A stretch of DNA of 64,000 bases from positions 322,321 to 386,320 of the forward strand of contig JAHQXD010000002.1 in assembly GCA_019449655.1 (NCBI GenBank). The letters run 5' to 3'. The stretch comes from Ferrigenium straubiae (lineage in GTDB: Bacteria > Pseudomonadota > Gammaproteobacteria > Burkholderiales > Gallionellaceae). The notes below the pieces were generated by a model, which was given only the letters and a program-made list of their open reading frames with translations, made no database searches and was not told the origin of the DNA. A program made the position numbers and the translations under genes. Below, in pieces: positions 37,068-55,233 of the stretch. Position 1 is the first letter of the stretch. Each line of letters begins with the position of its first letter.

Positions 37068-37417
37068 ATCAAAGTTGGTCTTCTGAATTTCCCGTCAATT
37101 CCCTTCTTCCGCCGCCATGGATTTTTCCTGGCGGAGCCGAGCATTTGGATTTTGTGGTCATTTTGCTGCTGCGAACCGATTGCAATTCCTCTTCGAGCCT
37201 TCTTTGTCATTAAGCCGAATGGACTAGTTATTTTGGTCTATATCGGCGAAGTGGCCGGTATGGTCTAATCCCCATCCGAATTACTCTCTGTCGAAGCTGT
37301 TAACGCATGCGGCGGCAGAAAACAGGCTGGATTGAAATTGAATCAATCGGTTATCAGAAAGCGCGATTCTCTGTTTTTAATAATACCGGCCACCAGTCCG
37401 GTGCATGGGAGAGTTGC
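37068..37417. other. Intergenic region between tRNA-Pro and the molybdenum island
   Basis: 350 bp without a supported gene. A hairpin CCGCCA/TGGCGG (about 37110-37135) might end the tRNA transcript but has no T-run. AT-rich DNA with TAATAAT (37379-37386) and the stem ACCGG/CCGGT lies just before the first gene of the island and may hold its promoter. I saw no ModE box and no Moco-riboswitch pattern here. Confidence 0.4.
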
Positions 37418-37948
37418 ATGAAGATATTCCGCATTTGCGGTTACGGCGGCGGGCGCGGCGAGCTGGTAGCCAGGCTTGCCGAGGAGTTCAGCTTCCGGCA
37501 AGTCGGGATCGCGGCGGTGAAATATGCGCACAAGCCATTCGACATGGACAAGCCGGGATCGGAAACCAGCAACCTGCGCCAAGGCGGCTGCCGGCAGACG
37601 CTGATTGCCAACCGCGACCGCTGGGGGCTGCTGTGCGAAACCCCCGATCAGACCGATCCCGATCCTGTCCTGCTGGCCGGACATCTCGCCGAATGCGACC
37701 TGGTCCTGGCGATCGGCTTCGACAATGCGCCCTTGCCCGGCCTCGAGGTGATGCGCGCCGACAATCCCGGTGAGCCGCTATGCCGGCGCGACCCGCATAT
37801 CCAGGCCGTAGTCATCGATGGCGTTCCGCCGCCGGGCGTGCCTTACAGCTTTGCGCACACCGACATCGAGAATATCGCCACGCATATCCTGGAGCGGGCG
37901 GTTCTGCTTCCCCCGCGGACAGATGACAGACGGACTGCTGCGCATTAA
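37418..37948 (+). CDS. MobB-like protein with a destroyed P-loop
   Basis: A 176-aa paralogue of MobB, which assists MobA in guanylating molybdopterin. The body aligns with Mob[46 protein letters not shown] and [11 protein letters not shown]. The Walker A, however, reads GYGGGRGEL (residues 8-16) where GxxxxGK[ST] is expected, so the Gly, Lys and Thr are replaced by Arg, Gly and Glu. It cannot bind GTP in the usual way. An intact MobB (41139-41627) is in the same cluster. It precedes moaA by 8 nt, so it is part of the operon and under some selection. A regulatory or scaffold role is possible. GAGAG before ATG 37418 supports the start. Confidence 0.75.
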
Positions 37949-41138: not shown

Positions 41139-41627
41139 ATGCCGAACGTATTTACCGTCGTCGGGCATTCCGGTTCCGGCAAGACCACGCTGGTCGAAAA
41201 GCTGCTGCATGAGCTGAGCGGCCGGGGGCTGCGCGTCGCGACCATCAAGCACGCGCATCACAAGGTGGTGCTGGACACTCCCGGCAAGGACAGCTTCCGC
41301 TACAAACAGGCCGGCGCGGTGATGAGCATGCTGGTCACGTCCAACGAGCTGCAACTGGTCGCCGACGCGGTCGACCGGCGCGAGCCGGAGCAACTGGCGG
41401 GGCGCTTCCTCGGCGAGGCCGACCTGGTGCTCGCGGAAGGCTTTTCCCACTGCGCCGGAGCGAAGATCGAGGTGCTGCGCCGCGAATGCGCCAAGCCGCC
41501 GCGCTGCACGATCGAGGACGGGCTGATCGCCATCGTCACCGACATGGACGAGGTCTATCCGCAGTTGCCGCATTTCGGGCTGGAGGACGTCGCCGCGATT
41601 GCGCAGTTCCTGCTCGACCGGAAATGA
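41139..41627 (+). CDS. mobB: Molybdopterin-guanine dinucleotide biosynthesis adapter protein, intact MobB
   Basis: MobB (162 aa) with an intact P-loop VVGHSGSGKTTLVEKLLHEL and the family segment TIKHAHHKVVLDTPGKDSFR. It binds GTP and helps MobA attach GMP to molybdopterin. It lies 9 nt after moaE and overlaps mobA by 4 nt (ATGA). Compare the degenerate paralogue at 37418-37948. Confidence 0.95.
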   Translation: MPNVFTVVGHSGSGKTTLVEKLLHELSGRGLRVATIKHAHHKVVLDTPGKDSFRYKQAGAVMSMLVTSNELQLVADAVDRREPEQLAGRFLGEADLVLAEGFSHCAGAKIEVLRRECAKPPRCTIEDGLIAIVTDMDEVYPQLPHFGLEDVAAIAQFLLDRK

Positions 41628-43446: not shown

Positions 43447-43472
43447 GTAATGAATCCGGAAAAGACTATTCG

Positions 43473-43563
43473 CCACGAAGAGCACGAAGCACACGAAGAG
43501 TTTTCAATAGGTTGCAGCCGGCAATCGTTTGGTTTTTCTTCGTGTTCTTCGTGTGCTTCGTGG
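43473..43563. repeat. CACGAAG-type inverted repeat, copy 2
   Basis: Left arm 43473-43498 (CCACGAAGAGCACGAAGCAC...) and right arm 43538-43563 (...TTCGTGTGCTTCGTGG) with a 39-nt centre. It is located between moeA and mog inside the molybdenum operon. Arms are imperfectly complementary and share the CACGAAG unit with copies at 31660 and 49115. Confidence 0.8.
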
Positions 43564-43576
43564 TAAAGGGGGTTAA

Positions 43577-44119
43577 ATGAGCATTGCACGCATCGGTATT
43601 CTGACCATTTCCGACCGCGCGAGCCGCGGCGAATACGAGGACAAGGGCGGTCCGGCGATACATGCCTGGTTTACGCGCGTGCTGACCTCGCCGTGGGAAC
43701 AGGTGGTGCGGGTGATTCCCGACGAACAGCCGCTGATCGAGGCGACGCTGATCGAGCTGAGTGACCGGGAGAACTGCTCCCTGATCGTTACCACCGGCGG
43801 CACCGGCCCGGCGCTGCGCGATGTCACGCCGGAAGCCACCGAGGCGGTGTGCGAGAAGATGATGCCGGGCTTCGGCGAGCTGATGCGCGCCGCATCCCTG
43901 AAGTTCGTGCCCACCGCTATTCTCTCGCGCCAGACCGCCGGTATCCGCGGCAAGAGCCTGATCGTCAACCTGCCCGGCAAGCCTTCCGCGATCGACGACT
44001 GCCTGAACGCGGTGTTCCCCGCGATCCCGTACTGCATCGACCTGATCGAGGGTGCGTACCTGGAATCCGATCCGGAGCAATGCAAGGCGTTTCGTCCGGC
44101 GCACGCCAAACGTATGTAA
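43577..44119 (+). CDS. mog: Molybdopterin adenylyltransferase
   Basis: Mog (180 aa) adenylates molybdopterin before metal insertion by MoeA. Seen: ARIGILTISDRASRGEYEDK, LIVTTGGTGPALRDVTPEAT and NLPGKPSAIDDCL. The serine-rich TISDRAS start and TTGGTG loop are diagnostic of the MogA/MoaB fold, and LKFVPTAILSRQTAGIRGKS places it with Mog. It ends the cofactor-synthesis block; a 595-bp gap follows. Confidence 0.95.
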   Translation: MSIARIGILTISDRASRGEYEDKGGPAIHAWFTRVLTSPWEQVVRVIPDEQPLIEATLIELSDRENCSLIVTTGGTGPALRDVTPEATEAVCEKMMPGFGELMRAASLKFVPTAILSRQTAGIRGKSLIVNLPGKPSAIDDCLNAVFPAIPYCIDLIEGAYLESDPEQCKAFRPAHAKRM

Positions 44120-44345
44120 CTTCACTTGAAAAATTGGGAGGGGACCGCAAAAAAGCGAGATTCCTAATGCCCGGCGGGCATGTCACGATAGTCTGACGGT
44201 TGTTCATTCTGGTGTTCCCTTTTCAACTATGCTCTGATTTCCACAACCTTGCAGGTCTCGCTTGCCCGGGTGGCATGGCAAGAGGCGGTTCCCCCATTTA
44301 TTCTGGCATGGTAGGATTCTTAGTCGTGTTTCAGGCTCGGATTTG

Positions 44346-44369
44346 CGTTATATACCACCTACCCTAACG
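44346..44369. promoter_or_regulatory. ModE-box-like palindrome 1
   Basis: A 24-bp site starting CGTTATAT and ending CCTAACG. The outer CGTTA/TAACG arms are perfect and the interior CACCTAC resembles the E. coli modA operator as I recall it. A modE gene is 2.3 kb downstream. Confidence 0.6.
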
Positions 44370-44400
44370 AACTAGTTCTTTTTTTGGTTGTTTCGCCATG

Positions 44401-44424
44401 CGTTATATCGTATCGTGTATCACG
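44401..44424. promoter_or_regulatory. ModE-box-like palindrome 2 (weaker)
   Basis: A 24-bp site starting CGTTATAT and ending GTATCACG; the right half matches ATATAACG in 6 of 8 positions. It starts 55 bp, about five helical turns, after box 1. Confidence 0.45.
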
Positions 44425-44444
44425 CTATCAGGGAGGAAACAATT

Positions 44445-44471
44445 GTGCGAAAAGTTAATTTAACAGTTTAA
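44445..44471 (+). other. Possible leader mini-ORF in the porin leader
   Basis: GTG CGA AAA ... TAA encodes eight residues (MRKVNLTV). It is preceded by GGGAGG (44431-44436) with 8-nt spacing, which is a better ribosome site than many real genes have. It lies upstream of the hairpins and the terminator-like structure, as attenuation leaders do. It may also be chance. Confidence 0.25.
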
Positions 44472-44546
44472 CAAACAAAAGCTGCCTTGCTTGCAGGCTG
44501 GAATTTCAAGCGTCATTGCCGCATTTCGAATGCGGTGGGGGCTTGA

Positions 44547-44575
44547 AGGCGTTGTCGTTTACCGCCTCTTTTTTT
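44547..44575 (+). terminator. Terminator-like hairpin in the porin leader
   Basis: A short stem AGGCG/CGCCT (44547-44551 with 44563-44567) followed by C and seven Ts. It either ends transcripts from upstream (mog) or attenuates the porin. ModE-like box 3 begins 7 bp further on. Confidence 0.5.
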
Positions 44576-44581
44576 GAATGC

Positions 44582-44605
44582 CGTTATATGCAGCAAGATA
44601 TAACG
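44582..44605. promoter_or_regulatory. ModE-box-like palindrome 3 (perfect arms)
   Basis: CGTTATAT - GCAGCAAG - ATATAACG: perfect 8-bp arms around an 8-bp spacer, the typical form of a ModE operator. It lies 110 bp before the porin start codon and is the best of the three sites. Confidence 0.7.
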
Positions 44606-44714
44606 TGCATGGGTGGTAATACGACAAGCAACCAGCTCATCCCGAAAAGCGGGAAAGAGGGAATAAGGAAGAAGTGACTCAGAAGCACACCAACTAATCA
44701 AAAGGAGTTTATTC

Positions 44715-45830
44715 ATGCAAAAAAGAATCATCGCCACTGCCATCCTGGCTGCCGTTTCTGCGCCGGCTCTTGCCGATACCGGCAATGTCACCGTCTATGG
44801 CGTGTTGCATGCGGATGTCGAGTCCGTGAAAAATAACAAGGCCACCCTTGCAACCAACGCGGCCAGCCTGAACCGTGTGAGTTCCAACGCGACTCGCCTG
44901 GGGTTCAAGGGCAAGGAATATCTGGGTGACGATCTCACCGCAATCTGGCAACTGGAGGCGGAGTTCGACCTGACCAACAGCAACGGCGCGCCATTTGCGA
45001 AAACGCGTAACAGCAACGTGGGGCTGCAAGGCAATTTCGGCACCGCGTTTTTCGGCAACTGGGACACGCCCTACAAGGAGGCGCGCAGCCGGGTCGAGTT
45101 GTTCGGCAACACCCACATCGCCTCGGCGATCAACGTCATGGGACGTGCCGGGCTTAACACCAACAGCGTCACCGCTGCTTCGAGCACCGTTAACTTCAAT
45201 ACCCGGCAGAAAAACGTGCTCCAGTACTGGACGCCGGATTTCAACGGTTTCCAGGCCAGGCTGGCTTACGCGCCGGACAATGCCAAGAAAGGGACTCTCG
45301 CTGCGGGCGGCGACAAATCTATCTGGTCGTTTTCGGCTGCCTACGACAAGGATGCGTTCTATGCCGCCTACGCCTACGAGGCCCACAAGGATACGCTATC
45401 TACGGCAACCAGCCTGACCGACACGGCGAGCCGACTGGTCGGCACATACAAGATCGGGAACGGACTGATCGGCCTGACCTGCGAACGCCTGTCCGTGGCG
45501 ACGCTGACAACCAGCACCGCCACATCCTCGCGCAACGGCTGGGAACTGACCGGAAAATACAAGTTCGGCGCAAGCAACATCGGCGCGTTTTACGCACGCG
45601 CAGGCGATCTGGGCGGCGTGGCTAATACCGGCGCGAACCAATACTCCCTGCGCTATGGCTACAACCTCTCGAAGCGCACCGAACTGTATGGCTTCTACAC
45701 CCGCTTGAATAACGACGCGGCGGCCAGTTACAACTTCCATGCCGGCAACACCATAACCAGCACGGCGGGTGCGGCGGGTCTCGGTGCGACGCTCTCGGGG
45801 GGCGGGCTGGGGCTTCTGCATTCCTTCTAG
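44715..45830 (+). CDS. Gram-negative general porin, probably molybdate-regulated
   Basis: A 371-aa outer-membrane porin. The signal peptide is MQKRIIATAILAAVSAPALA, cleaved before DTGNVTVYGVLH. The opening GNVTVYGVLHADVES, LGFKGKEYLGDDLTAIWQLE and NVGLQGNFGTAFFGNWDTPY are typical of the betaproteobacterial 16-strand trimeric porin family. The chain ends in LLHSF with the terminal Phe used for BAM-dependent assembly. The position between the moa/mob genes and nifQ-modE-modABC, plus three ModE-like boxes upstream, suggests a channel for molybdate entry. That function is inference. AAAAGGAG precedes the ATG. Confidence 0.85.
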   Translation: MQKRIIATAILAAVSAPALADTGNVTVYGVLHADVESVKNNKATLATNAASLNRVSSNATRLGFKGKEYLGDDLTAIWQLEAEFDLTNSNGAPFAKTRNSNVGLQGNFGTAFFGNWDTPYKEARSRVELFGNTHIASAINVMGRAGLNTNSVTAASSTVNFNTRQKNVLQYWTPDFNGFQARLAYAPDNAKKGTLAAGGDKSIWSFSAAYDKDAFYAAYAYEAHKDTLSTATSLTDTASRLVGTYKIGNGLIGLTCERLSVATLTTSTATSSRNGWELTGKYKFGASNIGAFYARAGDLGGVANTGANQYSLRYGYNLSKRTELYGFYTRLNNDAAASYNFHAGNTITSTAGAAGLGATLSGGGLGLLHSF

Positions 45831-45896
45831 CCAGGAGCGCATCACAGCAATACAAGTAATACGCATAAATATAACGCCACAGGGGAAGGGAAAGTC

Positions 45897-46001: not shown

Positions 46002-46064
46002 GGCAAGGCGAGCGCCGGAACCATGATTGGGTCATCGCATTGTGCCAGCAGCGCGGGGGAGTTC

Positions 46065-46655
46065 ATGCCGCCAATAGCCGCATACCCTCCGACGCAGCCG
46101 GTCTTGGATGACAGTCATGAGATTGCAGCATCTGTAATCACAAATGTCATGTGCACCGCAGACAATGGCGACTTGCCGCTGTTCGCAGCCACACTTGGCA
46201 TACCTTCCAAAGAATTCGCCATGCTCCTTGACGGGCAATCGCAGCCCCTATTTCAGTTCAATTCGCTGCACGCCAAGTTGCTGGCCGACTGGCTGCCCGG
46301 ACTGTTTCTGCCGCTGGTCGAGCTGCTTTGGGATTACCAATGCCGCCAAGACCGGCTTGGCTGGCTGGTTTCCCATGCTGTTGCCTGCGCCTGTTTCGGG
46401 CACCGGCATCTTTGGCAGGACTTGGGGCTGAATGAAAGGGAAGATGTTACGCGCCTGCTCCTCCGGCATTGCCCCGGGCTTGCCGCCCGCAATACGCAAA
46501 ACATGAAGTGGAAACACTTCCTGTTCAGTGAGCTGGGCAAGCGCCTTGGGCAATCCGATCTCGAGCCTCCGGGGTGCGGCGGATGCGATCAGGTGCGTGC
46601 CTGTTTCCCGGGCAGAAAAGAATCGGGAATTGCCTTCATGCGGAGGGTGAGATAA
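46065..46655 (+). CDS. NifQ-like molybdenum-handling protein
   Basis: A 196-aa protein of the NifQ family. Diagnostic C-terminal region: HLWQDLGLNEREDVTRLLLR, LAARNTQNMKWKHFLF and the Cys motif CGGCDQVRAC (C171, C174, C180). NifQ normally has C-x4-C-x2-C-x5-C; here the first Cys position is Leu166, so only three of four remain. NifQ carries a Mo-Fe-S cluster and donates Mo to FeMo-co synthesis. No nif gene is in the window; the neighbours are modE and modABC. ATG 46065 has GGGGGAG at good spacing; an ATG 42 nt upstream is an alternative. Confidence 0.8.
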   Translation: MPPIAAYPPTQPVLDDSHEIAASVITNVMCTADNGDLPLFAATLGIPSKEFAMLLDGQSQPLFQFNSLHAKLLADWLPGLFLPLVELLWDYQCRQDRLGWLVSHAVACACFGHRHLWQDLGLNEREDVTRLLLRHCPGLAARNTQNMKWKHFLFSELGKRLGQSDLEPPGCGGCDQVRACFPGRKESGIAFMRRVR

Positions 46656-46691: not shown

Positions 46692-48319
<1,628 letters not shown>

Positions 48320-48412
48320 TCTTATTTGCTGCGCGCTTCATCATGAGCAGCAAGGCGCGCGCGATTACTGATTGCTATGGCTTAGTTTCGCCGGGTGAAG
48401 CAAAATAGCGCG

Positions 48413-49096
48413 ATGGAATCCGCTTTCTCCTCCGCCGACCTTTCCGCGATCTGGCTCACTCTCAAACTGGCCTCGGTTACGACCCTCATCCTGTTGCTGC
48501 TCGGCACGCCGGTTGCGTGGTGGCTGGCGCGCACCCGTTCCTTCTGGAAGGGTCCGGTCGGCGCGGTGGTGGCGCTGCCCATCGTGCTGCCGCCGACGGT
48601 GATCGGTTTCTATCTGCTGGTGGCGATGGGGCCGTCCGGGCCGCTTGGCGCGTTCACGCAGGCGCTGGGGATCGGCCTGTTGCCCTTCACCTTCGCCGGG
48701 CTGGTGGTCGCCTCGGTGTTCTATTCCATGCCGTTCGTGGTGCAGCCGCTGCAGAACGCCTTCGAGGCCATTCCCGAACGCGCGCTGGAAGCCGCCGCGA
48801 CGCTGCGCGCATCGACCCTGGATGCTTTCTTCAGCGTGGCGCTGCCGCTCGCGAAACCTGGCTTCCTCACTGCGACGGTGCTCGGCTTCGCGCACACCGT
48901 CGGCGAATTCGGCGTGATCCTGATGATCGGCGGCAACATCCCGGACAAGACGCGCGTGGTGTCGGTGCAGATATACGACCATGTCGAGGCGATGGAATAT
49001 GCCTCGGCGCACTGGCTGTCGGCGGGGATGGTGGTGTTCGCTTTCGTGGTGCTGCTGGCGCTGTATACGCTCAACCCGACGGGGCGGCGCAGATGA
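48413..49096 (+). CDS. modB: Molybdate ABC transporter permease
   Basis: ModB (227 aa), inner-membrane permease with five to six helices. The family starts [20 protein letters not shown], continues [20 protein letters not shown], and has the EAA loop [20 protein letters not shown] that contacts Mod[21 protein letters not shown] is also diagnostic. ATG 48413 is chosen; an upstream GTG adds six residues. Neither has a good Shine-Dalgarno. Confidence 0.95.
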
Positions 49097-49244: not shown

Positions 49245-50315
49245 ATGATCCACGCACGCTTCGATCTCGTCTATCCCGGTTTCGTGTTGCACGCGGATCT
49301 GAATGTATTCGCGCATGGCGTCATCGCGCTGTTCGGCCCGTCCGGTTCGGGCAAGACCACCTTGCTGCGCTGCATCGCGGGGCTGGAACGCACCGCCAAC
49401 GGGGCGCTGCAGGTGAAGGACGAGGTGTGGCAGAGCGGCGACAAATTTATGCCGGTGCACCGGCGCCCGCTGGGTTACGTGTTCCAGGAAGCCAGCCTGT
49501 TCCCGCATCTGTCGGTGAAGGAAAACCTGGAATACGGCCTGAAACGCATTCCGCCGGAGCAGCGCAGGGTGCAGCTGGAGCAGGTGGTGGAGTGGCTCGG
49601 CCTGAACAAGCTGATCGGGCGCGACAGCCCTGCCGGGCTGTCCGGCGGCGAGCGGCAGCGCGTTGCCATCGGCCGCGCACTGCTTGCCAGCCCGCGCCTG
49701 CTGCTGATGGACGAGCCTCTTTCGGCGCTGGATGCGGCGAGCAAGCGCGACATCCTGCCGTATCTGGAGCGGCTGCACGAGGAGCTGGACATCCCGGTGA
49801 TCTATGTCAGCCATGCGCTGGACGAGGTGGCGCGGCTCGCCGACCAGCTGGTGCTGATGGAGCAGGGGCGCGTCATCGCCAGCGGCGCGCTCAACGAAAT
49901 CCTCGGGCGGCTGGATCTGCCGACCGCGTACCTGGACGACGCGGGTGCGGTGATCGAGGCCGGCGTGGCCGAACACGACGAGGAGTATCACCTGAGCCGG
50001 CTGGATTTCCCCGGCGGCAGCCTGTGGGTGAACAGGGTGGAACACGCCGTCGGCAGCAGGGTGCGCGCCCGCGTGCTGGCGCGCGACGTGAGCATCGCCA
50101 CCGCCGCGCCGCAGGACTCAAGCATCAGCAACATCCTGGAGGCGCGCATCGAAGAGATTCGCGACGAGGGATCGGGCCGCGTGAATCTGCGCATGTCCGT
50201 TGGCAGCGGGCAGTTGCTGCTGTCGCGCATCACGCGCCGCTCATGCGACCAGCTCGGTCTTGCGCCGGGCATGGAAGTGTTCGCGCAGGTCAAGAGCGTG
50301 GCGCTGATTGCGTAG
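49245..50315 (+). CDS. modC: Molybdate ABC transporter ATP-binding protein
   Basis: ModC (356 aa). ABC domain: Walker A GPSGSGKTTLLRCIAGLER (~32-50), Q-loop FQEASLFPHLSV, signature LSGGERQRVAIGRALLASPR, Walker B LLLMDEPLSALD and the H-loop SHALDE. A C-terminal Mop/TOBE domain (~292-356, SSISNILEARIEEIRDEGSG) can bind molybdate and give feedback inhibition. Complete and normal in length. Confidence 0.97.
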   Translation: MIHARFDLVYPGFVLHADLNVFAHGVIALFGPSGSGKTTLLRCIAGLERTANGALQVKDEVWQSGDKFMPVHRRPLGYVFQEASLFPHLSVKENLEYGLKRIPPEQRRVQLEQVVEWLGLNKLIGRDSPAGLSGGERQRVAIGRALLASPRLLLMDEPLSALDAASKRDILPYLERLHEELDIPVIYVSHALDEVARLADQLVLMEQGRVIASGALNEILGRLDLPTAYLDDAGAVIEAGVAEHDEEYHLSRLDFPGGSLWVNRVEHAVGSRVRARVLARDVSIATAAPQDSSISNILEARIEEIRDEGSGRVNLRMSVGSGQLLLSRITRRSCDQLGLAPGMEVFAQVKSVALIA

Positions 50316-54534: not shown

Positions 54535-55233
54535 ATGGCAGAAGCAAAGAAGGCTAAACCAGCAGCAAAGAAACCGGCAGCCAAGAAAGCGGTGGCAGCC
54601 AAGAAACCGGTAGCCAAGAAAGTGGCAGCCAAGAAACCGGTAGCCAAGAAACCGGTAGCCAAGAAAGTGGTAGCCAAGAAAGTGGTAGCCAAGAAACCGG
54701 CGGCTAAGAAAGCAGTAGCAGCCAAGAAGCCAGCCGCCAAGAAAGTGGCAGCCAAGAAGCCAGCAGCTAAAAAGGTAGCAGCGAAGAAGCCAGCCGCCAA
54801 GAAAGTGGTAGCCAAGAAGCCAGCAGCTAAAAAGGTAGCAGCCAAGAAGCCAGCCGCCAAGAAAGTAGTAGTCAAGAAGCCAGCGGCTAAAAAGGTAGCA
54901 GCTAAGAAGCCAGCCGCCAAAAAAGTGGCAGCCAAGAAGCCAGCAGCTAAAAAGGTAGCAGCCAAGAAGCCAGCCGCCAAAAAAGTGGCAGCCAAGAAGC
55001 CAGTAGCTAAAAAGGTAGCAGCGAAGAAACCGGCAGCAGCTAAACCGGCAGCGGCTAAACCGGCAGCGGCTAAACCGGCAGCGGCTAAACCGGCAGCGGC
55101 TAAACCGGCAGCGGCTAAACCGGCAGCCCCGGTGGCAGCCAAGCCGGCAGCCCCGGCTCCTTCTGCGCCAGCGCCTGTGCGTCCGGCTGCAACATGGCCT
55201 TTCCCAACACCGGGAATCGGCAAGCCGAACTGA
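54535..55233 (+). CDS. Histone H1-like Lys/Ala/Pro-repeat DNA-binding protein
   Basis: A 232-aa extremely basic, low-complexity protein. Residues ~1-165 repeat the 10-residue unit KKPAAKKVAA. Residues ~165-195 repeat AAAKP about six times, followed by a Pro/Ala tail ending TWPFPTPGIGKPN. It resembles AlgP/HctB-type bacterial H1 homologues that bind DNA through lysines and may compact the nucleoid. No folded domain exists. AAGGAGG precedes the ATG. Repeat number probably varies between strains. Confidence 0.85.
   Translation: MAEAKKAKPAAKKPAAKKAVAAKKPVAKKVAAKKPVAKKPVAKKVVAKKVVAKKPAAKKAVAAKKPAAKKVAAKKPAAKKVAAKKPAAKKVVAKKPAAKKVAAKKPAAKKVVVKKPAAKKVAAKKPAAKKVAAKKPAAKKVAAKKPAAKKVAAKKPVAKKVAAKKPAAAKPAAAKPAAAKPAAAKPAAAKPAAAKPAAPVAAKPAAPAPSAPAPVRPAATWPFPTPGIGKPN
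54721..55020. repeat. Five tandem 60-bp repeats inside the H1-like gene
   Basis: Five consecutive near-identical 60-bp units, each starting GCCAAGAAGCCAGCCGCCAA or a one-base variant and ending AAAAAGGTAGCA. They are in frame (20 codons each) with only a few substitutions between copies. Nucleotide-level identity, including synonymous sites, points to recent expansion or gene conversion. Confidence 0.92.
55030..55125. repeat. 15-bp tandem repeats inside the H1-like gene
   Basis: About six copies of GCAGCGGCTAAACCG, each encoding AAAKP and nearly invariant in DNA sequence. In-frame expansion or contraction would not disrupt the gene. Confidence 0.9.

Follow-up and report, generated by a model that had tools for sequence, protein, structure and literature searches.

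The question raised by this locus is whether a porin gene preceded by three ModE-like boxes is controlled by ModE, and whether molybdate is the solute that the porin lets in. Passage of molybdate through the outer membrane is commonly ascribed to general porins. The locus lies in the window, the whole stretch of 64,000 nucleotides that was analysed (contig C5:322321-386320), which belongs to a 2.66-Mb genome in 5 contigs that is 99.99% complete. Three ModE-box-like sites at 44346, 44401 and 44582 upstream of the porin had been proposed by the first-pass annotation, and a pattern scan and a matrix scan both confirmed them. The features of the region are the following:

44346..44369, + strand: ModE-like box 1, CGTTATATACCACCTACCCTAACG, 3 mismatches; a counterpart lies before the porin of the nearest relative (G021)
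44370..44400, + strand: spacer of boxes 1 and 2; by sequence comparison the element GAxCTAGTTCTTTTT is common to G021
44401..44424, + strand: ModE-like box 2, CGTTATATCGTATCGTGTATCACG, 2 mismatches; counterpart in G021
44425..44581, + strand: 157-bp segment between boxes 2 and 3 with hairpins; by eye, a GC stem and then a T run near 44545-44576
44582..44605, + strand: ModE-like box 3, CGTTATATGCAGCAAGATATAACG, 0 mismatches, perfect 8-bp arms; the porin ATG is at 44715
44715..45830, + strand: Porin_4 outer-membrane porin, 371 aa (Pfam; best fold match Omp32, 1e54)
46023..46655, + strand: nifQ (NifQ family, Pfam)
46692..47501, + strand: modE, full length, HTH_1 and two TOBE domains (Pfam); the sole match of this ModE in the genome
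47507..48319, + strand: modA (SBP_bac_11, Pfam)
48395..49096, + strand: modB (BPD_transp_1, Pfam)
49245..50315, + strand: modC (ABC_tran and TOBE, Pfam)

The Pfam-supported gene order is MobB-like, moaA, moeB, moaD, moaE, mobB, moeA, mogA, the boxes, porin, nifQ, modE, modA, modB and modC, in which the moaD call is a ThiS match. This upholds the earlier placement of the porin between the cofactor-synthesis genes and nifQ-modE-modABC. Residues 13-266 of the 269 residues of the window ModE align with E. coli ModE (1b9m, E 2.8e-42). The genome has no nifH match at E 1e-80, so that nifQ may be a remnant or have a different molybdenum-related role. The cofactor cluster contains two genes with MobB matches (window 37307-37948 and 41139-41627), and an inverted CACGAAG-rich repeat was seen by eye between moeA and mogA (43466-43572), together with a sub-threshold Rfam MIR831 match. 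The Rfam MIR831 and CRISPR-DR57 matches in the window lie below the gathering scores and were taken as chance. A Histone H1-like HC2 family protein is encoded at 54535-55233.

The boxes were searched as CGTTATAT-N8-ATATAACG, with the reversed pattern as control. The site at 44582, whose perfect arms had been noticed earlier, is the only perfect match in the window (0 in 100 shuffles) and the sole one in the 2.66-Mb genome. The genome-wide scan that had been suggested as a check returns three places at two mismatches or fewer, two of which are these boxes (reversed control 0), and eight at three mismatches or fewer, three of which are these boxes (reversed control 4). The third place at two mismatches or fewer, C5:108391, is located within an ORF that matches DUF6575. 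Box 1 is weak by itself, as one of five genome places at exactly 3 mismatches. A symmetric matrix was built from 52 distinct sites (at most 3 mismatches) of 34 ModE loci of relatives and none from the window genome. This keeps it independent of the window, though not of the motif, since the training sites were picked by closeness to the same consensus. The three boxes score 24.4, 21.8 and 16.5 and take ranks 1, 2 and 3 in the window, with the next best site at 10.5. Across 200 Markov-1 windows the mean maximum was 9.6 and the largest score 20.4; sites of at least 16.4 numbered 7 in total, and no such window held three of them. Before modE, before modA and in the porin-nifQ gap ahead of nifQ the best scores are -1.8, -6.0 and 3.0, so no comparable box stands at these three places, and the earlier remark that modE and modA lack such a site holds. 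A half-site at 45869 is not significant.

The E. coli ModE consensus is ATCGCTATATA-N6-TATATAACGAT (PMC2700814, in excerpt), and the boxes of the window resemble the E. coli boxes in arm sequence and spacing (PMC2700814 and PMC545781, both in excerpt). The regulators are likewise similar, each with HTH_1 and two TOBE domains (1b9m match). Unlike in E. coli, the main sites of the window precede a porin and not modA or modE. ModE control of the porin is a likely prediction that is well supported by sequence, because the sites are the top ones of the genome, the arm spacing is that of E. coli, a full-length ModE is encoded 2 kb from the boxes, and boxes and channel genes are linked in relatives. 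This link has survived inversion, exchange and new recruitment of genes in the relatives.

The porin belongs to Porin_4 with 171.6 bits against a Pfam cut-off of 27. Its model (pLDDT 80.3) was read as a 16-strand barrel; it has 17 strand segments, two of which were taken as parts of one strand. The first PDB matches of the model are Omp32 (1e54, 2fgq) and then Neisseria PorB, and phmmer agrees on Omp32 (phmmer E 1.2e-14; Foldseek E 1.8e-23, TM 0.78/0.86). Omp32 of Comamonas/Delftia acidovorans (1e54, 2fgq, 2fgr) is anion-selective and is the best match in both sequence and fold, although its identity to the window porin in the fold alignment is 25%. We know of no molybdenum control of Omp32. 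At the positions of R38 and R133, which with R75 we take to be the basic constriction residues of Omp32, the window porin has an arginine, and at the position of R75 it has a threonine with an arginine adjoining (alignment by eye). The modelled Omp32-like fold would permit passage of molybdate without indicating a preference for it. Net charge does not differ between boxed and other porins (10 versus 36, p = 0.57); it is not distinctive, and a charge signature of molybdate porins was thus ruled out. Four Porin_4 genes of the window genome are among the matches listed. The paralog closest to the porin (C5:90031-91113) shares 75% identity with it and is boxless; no matrix score in its 15-kb region exceeds -0.4. 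The named matches of the porin besides G021 belong to Gallionella, and the family is accordingly taken to be Gallionellaceae.

We consider it fairly probable that ModE-molybdate represses an outer-membrane channel that is used for the uptake of molybdate or a molybdenum complex. When molybdate is sufficient inside the cell, ModE-molybdate would bind the boxes and block porin transcription. When molybdate is low, ModE would leave and the porin would be made. Molybdate could subsequently cross the outer membrane faster and feed ModABC and the adjoining cofactor-synthesis genes. The first-pass annotation had proposed that ModE controls a dedicated porin. The control stands as a sequence-based prediction; molybdate as the solute is plausible, and the porin family is a generic one. 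General porins already pass small anions, so that a dedicated molybdate porin may not be needed.

The nearest relative, Candidatus Ferrigenium altingense AG11 (G021), has a porin about 78% identical to that of the window. Together with boxes 1 and 2 it is inverted relative to mogA and modE, and modE lies divergently on its other side with two boxes between. In the direction of the porin, the elements are arranged as in the window (box 1, GAxCTAGTTCTTTTT, box 2), and the starts of boxes 1 and 2 are 55 bp apart in the window and 56 bp apart in G021. Past box 2 and still ahead of the porin there is a further box, which scores 23.7. Since box order, the 55/56-bp spacing and the intervening element were kept, boxes 1 and 2 stayed with the porin through the inversion. 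The ModE proteins of the window and G021 are only 54% identical, but the window ModE is 70-72% identical to those of genus g35, which suggests that modE has probably been exchanged and that porin and boxes were retained. G021 has the only close porin ortholog found beside mod genes, and boxes 1 and 2 are conserved there. Loss of the boxes in relatives that keep the synteny had been named as evidence against ModE control; G021 keeps the boxes and the porin beside modE. No nifH match was found in G021.

The family set comprises 158 genomes, 57 of which have a ModE match at E 1e-20. Apart from the window, 60 ModE loci were analysed, a few of which have an incomplete modE or two copies of it. The upstream neighbour of modE was recorded, and G116 was added from its gene order. 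An outer-membrane barrel neighbours modE in 19 of the 60 loci. Nine of these barrels are Porin_4 porins (G021, G023, G116, G145, G142, G140, G138, G115, G179), eight are TonB receptors (G103, G137, G178, G171, G163, G172, G175, G173), one is an OprD (G004) and one a Porin_O_P protein (G017); in G023, a 119-aa ORF between modE and the porin was disregarded. Pfam was used to check six of the eight TonB receptors, the OprD, the Porin_O_P and the porins of G023 and G145. The porins of G021, G116 and G138 are among the matches listed in a PF13609 search, and the remaining barrels rest on similarity. All 19 loci have a ModE-like box at the start of the barrel gene with a score of at least 18.8. Training sites came from 15 of them, and the 19 leave-one-locus-out scores are still 18.8 to 34.2, which rules out matrix circularity as the cause. 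The other 41 loci have no barrel beside modE on the upstream side (two are at a contig end); in several of them modE itself is preceded by boxes, and a number of loci, chiefly those of second ModE copies in g35, are boxless.

Genus g35 contributes 7 of the 60 loci with an Alginate_exp-type barrel near modE (G132, G131, G118, G126, G119, G134, G133). These barrels score at least 19.4 at their starts, with all seven loci in the training set. G127 has such a barrel in another locus, and two of the Alginate_exp-type proteins were checked by Pfam. Mod clusters of g35 with a boxed Alginate_exp-type barrel are found in loci L158, L161, L163, L164, L190, L194, L201 and L146. Perfect boxes also stand about 56-61 bp before divergent ORFs cut by the locus end (L119, L121, L122, L126, L127; genomes G118, G121, G126), and the two ORFs that were checked, those of L119 and L126, match the TonB Plug domain. 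Two ORFs of another locus, L101:12101-13747 (548 aa) and L101:7820-9118 (432 aa), have boxes with 0-1 mismatch at or near their starts. The 548-aa ORF is followed by a modA-like gene, and neither has a convincing Pfam match.

Among 46 distinct porins, 10 score at least 18.4 and 36 at most 8.7, with none between; the 10/46 split is not an unbiased sample, because the loci were partly fetched for boxes. This set drops porins below 300 aa (the one of G023, 257 aa) or touching a locus end, and a few of the 36 unboxed porins come from other families of the order. On the porin tree the boxed porins fall into several lineages and need 7 changes in all, at least 5 of which are forced by starred branches, so that one dedicated porin lineage was rejected. 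The shuffled mean is 9.2 changes and only 20 of 500 shuffles are as low as 7, and some clustering of boxed porins therefore remains. The porins of the window and G021 are sisters, and their neighbour on the tree is the boxless paralog of the window genome. In G171, G172 and G173 a TonB receptor lies beside modE and a boxless porin of the boxed lineage about 5 kb off, which looks like replacement in one slot. Boxless Porin_4-type genes were also observed beside moaA and/or moeB in L029, L036, L028 and L116 (G007, G012, G031 and Gallionella sp. STF1_75), so that a porin in a cofactor cluster is a recurrent arrangement also where no ModE box is present.

The gene orders of these loci bear on a simpler explanation, in which a porin-nifQ-modE-modABC operon regulates itself through these boxes in the ordinary way, with the porin merely as its first gene, under incidental molybdenum control. 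We regard this as unlikely, if the best of the alternatives. It would fit a row of genes that all lie on the + strand, with no further box before nifQ, modE or modA, and it would fit the orders box-box-porin-modE-modA in G145 and modE-box-porin-modA in G116. It is at odds with the divergent loci (6 porin-type, 7 TonB-type), where a strong box lies close to the channel gene and farther from modE. It also does not account for G103, where a two-box porin lies about 5 kb from modE, or for G010, where an OprD gene with a 1-mismatch box is on a different contig from modE. In the window itself, porin and nifQ are separated by a gap of 192 bp.

The box is part of a larger cassette in many relatives. 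The consensus sequences are TGGCACG-N4-TTGCW for sigma54 and TGT-N10-ACA for NifA (PMC4999443, in excerpt). Alignment of 6 porin-type and 7 TonB-type intergenic regions reveals one architecture, with TGGCA and TTGC invariant in 13/13, followed by the box and then, in most, by a ribosome-binding site and the ATG. Measured by called starts, the ATG follows the end of the box at a distance of 26-28 in 10/13 of these cassettes and of 36 in G137, versus 110 for box 3 of the window. The called starts of G178 and G140 lie upstream of the box and are probably wrong. In 2.11 Mb of fetched loci (both strands), many of which lie close to nif genes, a match to 11 or 12 of the 12 sigma54 positions occurs at 52 places. 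A TGT-N10-ACA element lies 60-140 bp upstream in 39 of the 52, and a box (at most 5 mismatches) lies at an offset of 28-31 from the start of the 16-mer in 18, at exactly 29 in 15. The TGT-N10-ACA element is present in 16 of these 18 sigma54-box cassettes. Seven of them precede a Porin_4 gene (G023, G103, G142, G140, G138, G115, G179), eight a TonB receptor, one an OprD gene (G010), one a porin remnant behind an intact-looking cassette (G153, L149:6300-6530) and one a 313-aa ORF of no assigned family (G178, L152:5086-6027). The 18 cassettes are spread over 16 genomes, 14 of which (all but G010 and G142) belong to the 45 of the 158 family genomes that have a nifH match at E 1e-80. The identical 24-mer GGTTATGTAAATTAGTGCATAACG stands before both the TonB receptor of G103 and the porin of G140. 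In G169, a 300-aa ORF without a Pfam match lies directly behind the box (L150:5269-6171).

As far as sequence can tell, porin and TonB receptor interchange behind one cassette, and the slot is not bound to porins. The earlier focus on a porin is thus kept for the link between box and porin and widened for the linked protein, which may be a TonB receptor, an OprD or a Porin_O_P protein. The relatives carry a ModE-box cassette, often with a sigma54/NifA-type promoter, before an exchangeable channel (Porin_4, TonB receptor, OprD, Porin_O_P). This wider pattern, a conserved ModE cassette with interchangeable outer-membrane channels behind it, is a stronger finding than the single-porin case. No sigma54 site or NifA element was found at 44100-44720 in the window or before the G021 porin, and sigma54/NifA control of the window porin was rejected for lack of a site there. 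This lack, the greater distance between box 3 and the ATG, and the 41 loci with no barrel seen beside modE count against the proposed repression of a molybdate channel. We give even weight for and against a broader reading, in which the cassette has two inputs, NifA-type/sigma54 activation and a ModE operator over the start, and gates an exchangeable channel that opens only in cells that need nitrogenase and are short of molybdenum. Unrelated barrels would have been swapped into it repeatedly, and the window would represent a nitrogenase-less form under ModE alone.

The position of the box in the cassette, roughly at the expected sigma54 transcription start, suits repression. ModE might instead activate the porin when molybdate is plentiful and admit an oxyanion substrate of molybdenum enzymes such as nitrate, so that the channel would serve these enzymes and not molybdenum uptake. 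E. coli ModE has both activating and repressing roles, the distances of about 346 and 291 bp from the ends of boxes 1 and 2 to the porin ATG could suit activation, and Omp32, the closest match in fold, is a general anion-selective porin. We nevertheless hold activation to be improbable, given the relatives' box at the expected start of the sigma54 promoter and the TonB receptors that fill the same slot; TonB receptors take up scarce solutes.

Repression of the porin itself also compares favourably with the idea that boxes 1 and 2 control a small RNA or an attenuated leader ending near 44576, which would leave box 3 alone to the porin. Between boxes 2 and 3 a GC stem with seven T after it was seen by eye, and this would agree with the idea. 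The fold energy of the 157-bp segment is ordinary (z 0.08), it has no Rfam match, the terminator scan calls nothing there, and its only other occurrence in the 158 family genomes is a 38-base partial match in G102. A small RNA or riboswitch in this segment was rejected on these grounds, and in G021 boxes 1 and 2 stand directly before the porin, which makes such a division of the boxes very improbable.

The motif was also counted beyond the ModE loci. At one mismatch or fewer it is matched in 12 of the 158 family genomes, and in the order it is found in 75 of 300 genomes versus 12 of 300 for the reversed control. Inspection covered 47 order-wide loci, 27 returned by the search and 20 chosen among the matches listed. 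In 25 of the 47, a mod gene or a molybdenum-cofactor gene, as judged by similarity, lies no more than 700 bp away. Seven have an outer-membrane barrel, of Alginate_exp type in L243 and L245, of TonB type in L250, L255, L261 (weak) and L262, and of Porin_O_P type in L263, where it adjoins a modA-like gene. At two mismatches or fewer the family shows no excess of the motif over the reversed control, and the case for ModE therefore rests on position and not on number. These family counts would suit a chance origin of the boxes or their use by a different LysR-type regulator, but that explanation is negligible beside a score and clustering far beyond the shuffles, the order-wide excess and the 25 of 47 loci near a mod or cofactor gene.

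In the open-access literature that was searched, no outer-membrane target of ModE and no ModE-controlled porin were found, and a prior prediction elsewhere is possible. The nearest parallels share single elements. The NifA-RpoN regulon of Mesorhizobium loti includes the outer-membrane porins omp2b and msi158 ompW, whose TTGGCACG-type -24/-12 promoters resemble those of the relatives' channel genes (PMC3538637, in excerpt). A NifA/sigma54-controlled porin is therefore not new as such. The excerpted parts of that paper mention no ModE box or mod linkage, and the window porin itself lacks a -24/-12 promoter. In some Alphaproteobacteria NifA sites precede modABC, so that nitrogen-fixation control reaches molybdate uptake, as is proposed for the relatives, but at the inner-membrane transporter and not at the outer-membrane step (PMC4999443, in excerpt). 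In Azoarcus BH72, modA1 and modE rise under N2 fixation (PMC3916325, in excerpt). The ModA-IcmP route of Pseudomonas aeruginosa via type VI secretion ties an outer-membrane protein to molybdate acquisition (PMC8602904, in excerpt). FUR-box porins of Geobacter/Desulfuromonas (psp, an OprB-like gene) are, like the window porin, predicted to be under a metal regulator, with iron and FUR in place of molybdenum and ModE (PMC545781, in excerpt). What the open-access search did not find in print is a ModE operator before such a gene, its linkage to mod genes, or the swapping of barrel families.

If the proposed repression is true, the outer-membrane step of molybdate uptake would itself be regulated, and several barrel families would be interchangeable behind one operator. 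The result gives a short gene list with which regulated molybdate entry may be tested in culturable relatives and in other diazotrophs.
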